From: Synechococcus sp. CBW1002
GTDB lineage: Bacteria > Cyanobacteriota > Cyanobacteriia > PCC-6307 > Cyanobiaceae
Assembly (NCBI RefSeq): GCF_015840915.1
Contig: NZ_CP060398.1
Coordinates: forward strand, 1,054,001-1,118,000
DNA length: 64,000 nt
Direction of reading: 5' to 3'
Shown here: positions 18,271 through 21,893 of the stretch, piece by piece
Layout of the letters: each line of letters opens with the position of its first letter
Position numbering within the stretch: position 1 is the stretch's first letter
The notes under the pieces: model-generated
Told to the model about the DNA's origin: nothing
Databases searched by the model: none
What the model saw: the letters and a program-made list of their open reading frames with translations, nothing else
Position numbers and translations under genes: made by a program

Positions 18271-18302
18271 TTGACTCTCCAGTGAAGAGGAGCCCATACG
18301 GT
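18271..18302 (+). promoter_or_regulatory. MerR-type operator-promoter upstream of DUF305 gene
   Basis: -35 TTGACT (18271-18276) and -10 TACGGT (18297-18302) are 20 bp apart, the long spacer typical of MerR/CueR-controlled promoters. The spacer carries the dyad CTCC...GGAG (18277-18280, 18289-18292). The first eleven bases (TTGACTCTCCA) are identical to the site in front of the copper ATPase unit. Confidence 0.65.
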
Positions 18303-18323
18303 GGCCTCATTCGCCTTGTTGTG

Positions 18324-19055
18324 ATGCCAGCAGGCACGCTTCGGATCAGCTTCATGGCCCTGGCTGCAGCTGCGCTGTTGTCGTCCACGATGTCTTCCAC
18401 GGCCTTCGCCCAGGTGGATCCCCACGAGGGTCATCGCGGCATGGACGGCATGCCAGGCATGGCGACCCCAACCAGAGAGGACCATGCCCATGCCGGTCAT
18501 GCCCATGACGTGGGCCCGGCAGGCGCCACCTACGACCTGCGCTTCATCGACGGCATGGTGCAGCACCACACCGGTGCCCTGCGCATGAGCGAATTCGTCT
18601 TCGACATCGGCCAACCCGGTGTCGGGGCCCTGGGCAAGACGATCTGGCGGGATCAGGCCAATGAGATCCGCGCCATGGGCCTCGGGCGCAAGGCCTGGTA
18701 CCCGCAGGCGCCCGTCTATCCGGTGGCGCTGGCAGCCGGCGGCGATCCCAACAGCCTGTCTGGTCTGACTCGCATGAGCCAGGCCCAGATCGACGGCATG
18801 CGGATGATGGGCGACGGACCCACCAGGGAGAACCGGGTGGTGTGGTTCCTCGAGGGAATGCTCGACCACCACGGCGGCGCGCTGATCATGGCCCACGACG
18901 CCCTGGCCAAGAGCACCAACCCCACGATCCGGCGCTTTGCCCGGGCCGTGATCGTGGCCCAGCGGGCCGAGATTCGGGAGCTGCGCAGGATGCTGGCGGT
19001 GGAGGGATTGCGCAAGCCTGAGTACCACAATTATGACGCGCTCTTTGCCCTCTAG
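18324..19055 (+). CDS. DUF305 domain exported protein
   Basis: A 243-residue protein with a signal peptide (ALAAAALLSSTMSSTAFAQ), a His/Met-rich linker (HEGHRGMDGMPGMATP, HAHAGHAHD), and two DUF305 HH motifs (DGMVQHHTGALRMSEF and EGMLDHHGGALIMAHDAL). Such His- and Met-rich DUF305 proteins are often linked to copper resistance; a periplasmic metal-binding role is inferred. ATG 18324 is chosen because it follows the MerR-type promoter by about 20 bp. A second ATG at 18354 is possible. Confidence 0.85.
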   Translation: MPAGTLRISFMALAAAALLSSTMSSTAFAQVDPHEGHRGMDGMPGMATPTREDHAHAGHAHDVGPAGATYDLRFIDGMVQHHTGALRMSEFVFDIGQPGVGALGKTIWRDQANEIRAMGLGRKAWYPQAPVYPVALAAGGDPNSLSGLTRMSQAQIDGMRMMGDGPTRENRVVWFLEGMLDHHGGALIMAHDALAKSTNPTIRRFARAVIVAQRAEIRELRRMLAVEGLRKPEYHNYDALFAL

Positions 19056-19483
19056 TCCACAATCTCCAATACACCGCGCACCATGTTCATGCCGCAGTGG
19101 AAGGGATAGACGCCAGCCTCCGTGGGAGGCAATTCCAGGGTTGTGGTGGCATCAAGGGGCAGATCAAGGGTTTTGTGGAAATCGGGGAAGATCACCTGGG
19201 CCACACAGCTGCTCGGATCGATCCTGTGAAAAGCCAGCCGCAGCGGCCGGCCGGCCTTCACTCTGATTCTTGAGGGCGCATAGCCGCCATCCACGGTGAT
19301 GGTGATCTCCTGCAGGCCGTGCTCCCCTTCGCGGGCCACCACCCCACCGCCATGGCGTCCCAGGAACCACCACAGTTCCCAGGCGATCAGCACCACACCA
19401 ACGCCGGCGACCAGGGCCTTCAGCACCATGGGCTGATCGATGGTGCGCCAGAGGGGCGCTGCGGCGGCAAAGAGATGGGTCAT
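19052..19483 (-). CDS. Membrane-anchored cupredoxin-domain protein
   Basis: A 143-residue protein with one N-terminal transmembrane helix (VLKALVAGVGVVLIAWELWWFL) and a cupredoxin domain facing the periplasm or lumen. The late block GVYPFHCGMNMVRG provides His, Cys and Met as candidate copper ligands, with an earlier FHRID histidine. Its ATG overlaps the ATPase stop by one base (TGATG), so it is translated with that gene. Likely a copper carrier or buffer for the exporter. It ends four bases within the convergent DUF305 gene end. Confidence 0.85.
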   Translation of the reverse strand: MTHLFAAAAPLWRTIDQPMVLKALVAGVGVVLIAWELWWFLGRHGGGVVAREGEHGLQEITITVDGGYAPSRIRVKAGRPLRLAFHRIDPSSCVAQVIFPDFHKTLDLPLDATTTLELPPTEAGVYPFHCGMNMVRGVLEIVD

Positions 19484-21597
19484 CAGCTGGCGGCAACGGG
19501 AAGGGGCTTGGGCCGAAAGTTCCGCAACCTCAAGGCATTGCTCACCACCGACACGGAGCTGAAGGCCATGGCGGCCCCGGCGATCACCGGACTCAGCAGC
19601 CAGCCGGTGAAAGGAAACAGCAGGCCGGCGGCGATCGGAATGCCGGCCACGTTGTAAGCGAAGGCGAAGAACAGGTTCTGGCGGATGTTGGCCATGGCGG
19701 CGCGGCTGAGCTCGATCGCCGCCGGCACGCCGGCCAGGTTGCCGGAGATCAAGGTGATGTCGCTGGCGGCGATCGCCACATCGGTGCCGGTGCCCATGGC
19801 GATGCCCACGTCGGCCTGGGCCAGGGCGGGCGCGTCGTTGATGCCGTCGCCCACCATCGCCACGGGGCCCTCCCCCTGCTCCTGCAGCTTGCGAATCACC
19901 GAGGACTTGTCGGCGGGGCGCACTTCGGCGATCACCCGCTCGATCCCCACCTGGGCGGCCACCACCTCGGCGGTGCGGCGGGCATCGCCGCTGAGCATCA
20001 CCACCTGCAGACCCAGGCGCCGCAGGGCGGCCACGGCGGCTTCTGAACTGGATTTGAGGGGATCGGCCACGCCGAAGCAGGCCTCGATCCTCCCGTCCAC
20101 CATCACGGTCGCCACACTGCAGGCGGCGGCCTCGAGACGGTCCACCAGGGGCTTGAGGGCGGCGGTGTCGATGCCGAGCTCCTCGAACCAGCGGGGAGTG
20201 CCGACCCGCACCTGCTGGCCGGCGACCACCCCCTGCACGCCGCGGCCGGCCACGGCCTCGAAGCCCTCCACCGCAGGCATTGAGCCGTCCTTCAATTGGC
20301 TGCGGGCATAGGTGACGATCGCTTCAGCCAGGGGATGCTCCGAGCGGGATTCCAGCGCGGCGGTGAGGGCCAGCAGGGCATCGGCCGGCAATGCACCACC
20401 ATTCAGCCGCTCGTAATCGGTCACTTCCGGCTGGCCGCGGGTGAGGGTGCCGGTCTTGTCGAGCACGATGGTGCGCACAGTGCCGGCGGTTTCCAGGGCC
20501 TCGGCGCTGCGGAAGATCAGTCCGTTCTCCGCCCCCTTGCCCGAGGCCACCATGATCGAAGTGGGGGTAGCCAGGCCCAAGGCGCAGGGGCAGGCAATCA
20601 CCAGCACGCTCACCAGGAACACCATTGCCAGCACCGGGTTGCCGCTCACCAGGAACCAGGCCACGAAAGCCGCGATGGCGATGGCGATCACCACCGGCAC
20701 GAACCAGCCCACCACCTGATCGGCGAGCCTCTGCACCCTGGTGCGGGAGCTCTGGGCCTGGCGCACCAGCTCGACGATCTGAGCCAGCACCGTGTCGCCC
20801 CCCACCCGGCTCGCCCGAAACGTGAAACTGCCGCTGCGGTTCATCGAGGCGCCGATCACCTCATCGCCGGGAGCCTTGGCCACGGGGGTGGGTTCACCCG
20901 TGAGCATCGATTCCTCCACCCAGGAGCTGCCCTCCTCCACCACCCCATCCACGGGCACCTTCTCGCCGGGCCGCACCTGTACGTGGTCACCCACCACCAC
21001 CAGCGAAACCGGAATCTCGACGGGCACCCCGTCCCGGATCACCCGGGCGCTGGGGGGCTGGAGCTGCAGGAGGTGCCGGATCGCCTCGGAGGTCTGACCG
21101 CGGGCCCGAGCCTCCAGGAGACGGCCCAGCAGAATCAGGCTGAGGATCACCGCCGCAGTTTCGTAATACACATCGGCCGGTAATCCCTGCTTTCTCAGCA
21201 GATCGGGGGCAACGGTGGTGAGAATCGAGCTGAGGTAGGCAATGCCGGTACCGGTCGCCACCAGGGTGTTCATGTCAGCGGAGTGCTGCCGGAACGCCGA
21301 CCAGGCCCCGCTGAAAAATTCCCGGCCACACCAGAACAACACCGGGGTGGTGAGCACCAGCTGGCTCCAGGGGCTGGTGAACCAGGCCGGCAGAAACGGC
21401 AAGGAATGCCGGCCCAGCATGTGGGGCAGGCTGGAAAGCATGACCAGGGCCGTGAGCAGCGCCGCCACGCTCAGCTTGCGGCGTAACGCGGTGAGCTCCT
21501 GGGCCAGCTCCCGCTCGATGTCCGTGGTCGACGGGGTTTCGGTTGCGCCGTGGCAACAGGCCTGACCCATCGTTGGGGTGGTCATCGGAACGCTCAT
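19483..21597 (-). CDS. Cu(I)-translocating P1B-type ATPase
   Basis: A 704-residue heavy-metal P-type ATPase. The CPC metal site in [13 protein letters not shown] is at about 335, the phosphorylation motif DKTGTLT at about 380, HP in [10 protein letters not shown], and the hinge [14 protein letters not shown]. The last helices carry YNVAGIP and [16 protein letters not shown], matching the Cu(I)-type residues Tyr-Asn and Met-x-x-Ser-Ser. No N-terminal heavy-metal-associated domain with GMxCxxC is present; only a short CCHG near residue 14. CopA, CtpA and PacS are not distinguished here. Confidence 0.93.
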
Positions 21598-21830
21598 TCA
21601 GTTGGCTGCGTGGTCATGGAGCGACCACCGAGCCGCAGCGCAGCGGCCGGAAGCAGCGCGTGATGGAGGTGTTGATGCAGGTGTCGCTGACCCATGGAGT
21701 TGGTGTCCTGCGGTGTTGGCGATGTTCTGAGGCGCTCCTGGCAGCTCGAGCCCGTGCCCTTGAGCGTCAGGACGCCGGTCTCGGCAGCCGCCCTGGCAAA
21801 GACAGCAAGAGCTGAGACAGGGGACAGCAT
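21594..21830 (-). CDS. Candidate 78-residue His-containing leader protein before the copper ATPase
   Basis: An open frame that begins about 30 bp after the -10 of the MerR-type promoter and whose stop overlaps the ATPase start as ATGA, the pattern expected for coupled translation. It holds one Cys and a His-rich stretch ([12 protein letters not shown]). No family is recognised and no good ribosome binding site is seen, so it may be only an untranslated leader that happens to be open. A testable candidate, not a firm gene. Confidence 0.35.
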
Positions 21831-21861
21831 CAGAGCACCAACAACCGGGAACGCCCCTGTC

Positions 21862-21893
21862 AGCCTAAAGTCTCCCTAACAGTGGAGAGTCAA
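21862..21893 (-). promoter_or_regulatory. MerR-type operator-promoter for the copper ATPase unit
   Basis: Minus-strand -35 TTGACT (21888-21893) and -10 TAGGCT (21862-21867) with a 20-bp spacer holding the dyad TCTCC...GGAGA. It lies directly before the divergent merR gene, the standard arrangement for a MerR regulator that activates its neighbour. Shares TTGACTCTCCA with 18271-18281. Confidence 0.72.

Follow-up and report, generated by a model that had tools for sequence, protein, structure and literature searches.

Does a single metal-sensing regulator switch on the copper-defence genes of this locus, and if so, which metal does it sense? The locus lies in a window of 64,000 nucleotides from Synechococcus sp. 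CBW1002 (contig NZ_CP060398.1, positions 1,054,001 to 1,118,000), for which the original prediction had proposed that one MerR-type operator stands both before a DUF305 gene and, on the opposite strand, before a copper ATPase unit beside a merR gene, and that the two promoters form a small regulon induced by one metal. Unprefixed coordinates are those of the window throughout; merR1 denotes the merR gene of the window and merR2 its paralogue elsewhere in the genome. Our comparison of sequences supports the idea that both sites serve as operators in a one-component regulon of MerR type, induced by metal, most likely Cu(I), and covering copper-defence genes, and we give this reading a probability of about 0.83. 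The sites have a fixed geometry, lie almost exclusively before copper-type genes and co-occur with this MerR.

The window contains exactly two copies of the 11-mer TTGACTCTCCA, one at 18271-18281 (+) and the other at 21893-21883 (-). Alone this is weak evidence, since at least two matches, with one mismatch allowed, appeared in 29 of 100 shuffles. Matches in the window to the composite TTGACTCTCC-N8-GGAG are confined to 18271+ and 21893-, and none of 100 dinucleotide-preserving shuffles contains it. The two 32-mers (18271-18302 and 21862-21893) align without gaps, as had been claimed, with 22 of the 32 positions identical. The dyad, ACTCTCC-N8-GGAGNCY, is imperfect in the host genome, where 5 to 7 of its 11 pairs are matched. 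In operator 1 the -35 box TTGACT is at 18271-18276, the dyad at 18274-18295 and the -10 box TACGGT at 18297-18302; in operator 2 the -35 box is at 21893-21888 and the -10 box TAGGCT at 21867-21862. Both sites therefore combine TTGACT with a TANNNT -10 box across a spacer of 20 bp, within the 19-20 bp of the heavy-metal branch of MerR. The start of operator 1 is 53 nt from the DUF305 ATG (18324), the usual distance in relatives.

A genome-wide motif search, suggested along with the original prediction, located the perfect TTGACTCTCCN8GGAG at five sites in the 3.85-Mb chromosome, namely the two window sites and C1:2496953+, 2502779- and 2502840+; for the longer form that includes NCYNTA about 0.0001 sites would be expected by chance. 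Looser operators (up to three mismatches, whole genome) are not in excess: the pattern gave 117/97 hits and its reversed form 106/101. A match at 1901719 (CTGACTCCCC...) was taken as chance because the -10 box is missing at the correct place. The site at C1:2496953+ abuts merR2 and points towards two DUF3721 proteins. The remaining two distant sites diverge from each other: one reads into a DUF305 protein (a second CopM) and a YHS-domain P1B ATPase, and its partner leads to DUF411 and multicopper oxidase. The claim of a regulon thus stands, but its size does not, since the genome holds five promoters and two MerR paralogues. The five promoters probably constitute one set under one or two related metal-sensing MerR proteins.

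In a set of 201 genomes of the same family, a 28-bp operator pattern was found at 83 places in 31 genomes, whereas the reversed control gave none. With the empty shuffles and the five perfect sites, this led us to reject a chance repeat. Of the 201 genomes, 31 hold a MerR that shares 51% identity or more with merR1; other MerRs reach at most 43%, except for one partial sequence at 55% whose genome also holds a full MerR. Operator and MerR occur together in 30 genomes, MerR only in one, operator only in one and neither in 169 (Fisher p about 2e-33, shared ancestry not corrected for). In the MerR-only genome merR begins 36 bp from its contig end, and in the operator-only genome the contig stops 2.5 kb beyond the sites. 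CopM/DUF305, ATPase-cupredoxin, DUF411-multicopper oxidase or DUF3721 genes lie behind 66 of the 74 sites read, and the remaining eight precede small secreted Cys-rich proteins (two), glutaredoxin-MauE (three), a transposase (one) and a TPR-like protein (one), the last case being unclear. When the downstream position of the -10 box was left free, the spacer was 20 bp in 70 of 72 sites, as had been noted for the two window sites. Two operators of G095 (L078:2040 and L078:7774) are one base shorter in the inner gap, one of them with a 19-bp spacer; the sole MerR of this clade in that genome is 51% identical to merR1 and is broken by three TAG codons.

Beyond the family, a sample of 386 genomes of the phylum was searched with a slightly relaxed operator pattern and a MerR threshold of E 1e-24 or better. 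The operator is present in 27 of them, and 25 of these 27 hold this MerR, compared with 59 of the 359 genomes without the operator. In these more distant genomes a full palindrome, ACTCTCC-N8-GGAGAGT, is a frequent form of the operator, whose targets are HMA-type Cu-ATPases, DUF411-multicopper oxidase, CopM and merR itself. Its position directly before merR in other families implies a predicted autoregulation there. These sites, together with the dyad inside an over-long 20-bp spacer, the adjacency of merR and the near-complete co-occurrence with this MerR, make it very improbable that these repeats arose by coincidence, or that they belong to the promoters of a different factor such as a CopR-type response regulator, instead of being MerR operators. 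CsoR was set aside as the copper regulator, as the host genome has no match to it. The comparative evidence from family and phylum genomes is strong for a MerR-type operator that faces the DUF305 gene and the ATPase unit and is tied to the adjacent merR, and equally for the prediction that DUF305, ATPase and cupredoxin are regulated together.

MerR activators work by untwisting the promoter when metal is bound. A dimer of merR1 or merR2 would sit on the dyad within the spacer and, when free of metal, would keep the promoter in poor shape and inactive; the metal-bound dimer, most likely with Cu(I), would untwist the DNA such that RNA polymerase could use the -35 and -10 boxes. CopM-type DUF305, P1B copper ATPases, cupredoxin, DUF411 with multicopper oxidase and DUF3721 proteins would then be induced jointly. 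We infer that this MerR binds these operators, that copper is the inducer and that each of the five promoters responds to both paralogues. In Synechocystis, CopM binds copper and supports copper resistance (PMC4335983).

The two paralogues are 72% identical and each abuts one operator. This adjacency, and the placement of merR1 in a separate three-member clade (Shimodaira-Hasegawa approximate likelihood-ratio test, SH-aLRT, 99), would suit an arrangement in which each is limited to its own island, merR1 serving the two window promoters and merR2 the three distant ones. We regard such a division as possible but doubtful, since both islands carry one operator type, genomes with a single MerR of this type use the same operator (for example G062, with a merR2-type protein only) and the DNA-binding domains of merR1 and merR2 are nearly identical. 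Within C1:2470003-2516165 (L170, L010, L011), two blocks of 10.6 and 31.1 kb that carry the second metal island match G062, which belongs to another genus, at 99.7-99.95% identity, and 5.7 kb of the island are 99.8% identical in G199. This near-identity across genera indicates that the second metal-resistance island is a recent horizontal transfer; the outer limit of the transferred stretch on the low side was not reached.

The merR1 protein scores over the cut-offs of Pfam MerR_1, MerR and MerR-DNA-bind and has the winged helix and dimerisation helix of the MerR type. Its structure model (predicted local distance difference test, pLDDT, 92) is a monomer, with the intersubunit metal site beyond its reach; it has a long helix at 87-120, its best fold matches are CadR and PbrR, and Cys87 opens the dimerisation helix, where CueR has Ser77. 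The ligands of known MerR proteins are Cys79, Cys114 and Cys123 in MerR and Cys112 and Cys120 in CueR. On alignment to Bacillus MerR, Cys87 corresponds to Cys79 and Cys134 to Cys123, and the residue at the Cys114 position is not Cys. All 60 clade members examined retain Cys87 and Cys134, and the middle Cys is absent. The CueR combination of Cys112, Cys120 and Ser77 is likewise lacking, as there is a Cys at the 77/79 position and none at the 112 position. Such regulators are recognised by two or more of three metal-binding cysteines (PMC1526738), of which merR1 has two, and the pattern is unusual in that it fits neither CueR nor the Zn/Cd/Hg sensors. The invariant His80 was considered as a metal ligand, a candidacy weakened because two clade members have Tyr there.

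Several points weigh against our assignment. The co-occurrence p-values ignore shared ancestry and the horizontal transfer of whole islands. The spacing count is partly ascertained because the fetched loci were chosen by the operator pattern. The merR1 protein reaches no NCBIfam equivalog cut-off, scoring 64.4 bits for CueR (cut-off 147.4), 78.8 for CadR/PbrR (151), 71.8 for ZntR (168) and 77.4 for MerR (151). Finally, Ser at the CueR-77 position is described as marking monovalent sensors and Cys divalent ones, and CueR Ser77Cys responds to both (PMC11591864); the Cys that merR1 has at this position favours Zn/Cd/Hg or a response to both kinds of metal.

It is conceivable that the regulon is real but that copper is not its main inducer, the MerR responding to divalent soft metals (Cd, Hg, Zn, Pb) or to both kinds of metal. 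Besides the alignment of Cys87 with MerR Cys79 and the CadR and PbrR folds, the best NCBIfam score is that of CadR-PbrR, though far under its cut-off, and the cyanobacterial MerR Slr0701 of Synechocystis, which may or may not belong to the merR1 clade, has been reported to be mercury-responsive (PMC6741143). We nevertheless consider divalent sensing unlikely. The targets are IB1-type Cu-ATPases, multicopper oxidase, CopM and cupredoxin, no MerA, ZntA-type or CadA-type gene was recognised as the first gene behind a site, and the regulator lacks the third of the metal cysteines found in CadR, ZntR and MerR. As to induction by one metal, the gene content points to copper and one sensor residue to the divalent type. 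A copper-type regulon and a divalent-type residue are opposite pointers, and this conflict is the most interesting point. We give even odds to the idea that a cyanobacteria-wide MerR clade senses Cu(I) through an intersubunit pair of Cys79' and the C-terminal Cys, which replaces Cys112/Cys120 of CueR. If true, this would break the rule that Ser denotes monovalent and Cys divalent sensing, and many cyanobacteria would possess, beside CopRS or in its place, a one-component copper regulon with CopM among its members.

The proposed regulon resembles CueR/HmrR of Proteobacteria, with a MerR activator, an operator in an over-long spacer and Cu-ATPase and multicopper oxidase targets (PMC1526738). It differs in having a 20-bp spacer and 22-bp motif where CueR has 19 and 21 bp (PMC1526738, PMC5045206), in using a Cys at position 79 and the last Cys in place of Cys112/Cys120 with Ser77, and in targets beyond the CueR/HmrR set (CopM, DUF411, DUF3721). 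With the ZntR operator ACTCTGGAGTCGACTCCAGAGT (PMC1526738) it shares a 22-bp dyad, half-sites that begin ACTCT, a 20-bp spacer and the Cys at 79; the half-site is ACTCTCC rather than the ACTCTGG of ZntR, the targets are of copper type and the Cys114/115 ligands are absent from merR1. A 22-bp motif and its placement in the promoter are also common to the HMRTR subfamily of MerR (PMC5045206), whose motif may or may not be this one. Cyanobacterial regulators are among those covered by that survey of MerR motifs, and its main text gives neither target genes nor this regulon. Because it covered cyanobacterial members and 22-bp HMRTR sites, the class of regulator is already known, and the regulon would be of the MerR activator type with a known mechanism. 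CopMRS/CopBAC of Synechocystis (PMC4335983, PMC4284471) shares the CopM-type DUF305 output in copper defence, but there control is by the two-component CopRS, compared with the one-component MerR control suggested here. In the reviews consulted (PMC4284471, PMC12292863), the control of copper resistance in cyanobacteria is presented mainly through CopRS, the two-component system of Synechocystis. In the searchable literature, which did not include subscription journals, we found neither this regulon nor its targets described. A MerR operator that stands before a defined set of genes in more than one cyanobacterial family offers a testable one-component alternative to CopRS, ties DUF411, DUF3721 and glutaredoxin-MauE genes to copper defence through regulation, and makes this MerR clade a natural test of the residues that set metal choice in MerR proteins.

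The features of the locus are listed in the table.

Table. Genes and predicted operators around the copper-defence locus (window coordinates)
Feature	Position	Strand	Basis or remark
Operator-promoter 1, MerR-type (predicted)	18271..18302	+	faces DUF305/CopM
DUF305 protein, CopM-like, putative signal peptide	18324..19055	+	Pfam DUF305 6e-26
Cupredoxin-domain membrane protein, gene 2 of ATPase unit	19052..19483	-	Pfam Cupredoxin_1 3e-19
P1B-type copper-translocating ATPase, CPC motif, without HMA domain	19483..21597	-	TIGR01511 ATPase-IB1_Cu
78-aa open frame in ATPase leader	21594..21830	-	weaker third-position GC
Operator-promoter 2, MerR-type (predicted)	21862..21893	-	reads into ATPase unit; divergent from, and abutting, merR1
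merR1, MerR-family metal regulator (Cys87, Cys134)	21902..22321	+	Pfam MerR_1, MerR-DNA-bind
Second DUF305/CopM protein, downstream of merR1	22434..23246	+	NCBIfam CopM 97.2 bits, passes cut-off

The first DUF305 protein scores 80.7 bits for NCBIfam CopM, under the cut-off of 90, and the ATPase 627 bits for TIGR01511 (cut-off 397), which places it among the copper-translocating P1B ATPases. In relatives, too, the cupredoxin gene comes after the ATPase gene behind the operator. Searches of the 78-aa frame against the Pfam and NCBIfam profiles gave no match and it is unlikely to be a gene; where relatives have merR in the divergent arrangement, two DUF3721 genes often take its place. The second DUF305 gene is without an operator of its own and is possibly co-transcribed with merR1, and the merR-DUF305 pair recurs at the merR2 locus.

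Arsenosugar-type genes adjoin the copper operon, an arsenite methyltransferase-like gene at 15187-16260 and a radical SAM gene, ArsS, at 17126-18169 (TIGR04167 444 bits, cut-off 300), which is divergent from DUF305. We rejected arsS as the gene served by operator 1 because the order of its -35 and -10 boxes faces DUF305 and the distance to the ATG fits that in relatives.

Some of the less common genes behind operators in relatives deserve mention. In G156 a transposase-like gene (176-aa frame, L104:2401-2931) lies directly behind an operator adjoining merR, presumably an insertion that severs the copper genes from their promoter. A glutaredoxin-MauE fusion membrane protein is a repeated target (L088:3071-3790, L081:4395 on, L089) and is a candidate new copper-defence gene. 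Small secreted proteins with a terminal GGCCCC cysteine cluster are encoded directly behind operators at L075:3141-3362 and L087:17214-17414 and are possibly copper-binding peptides.
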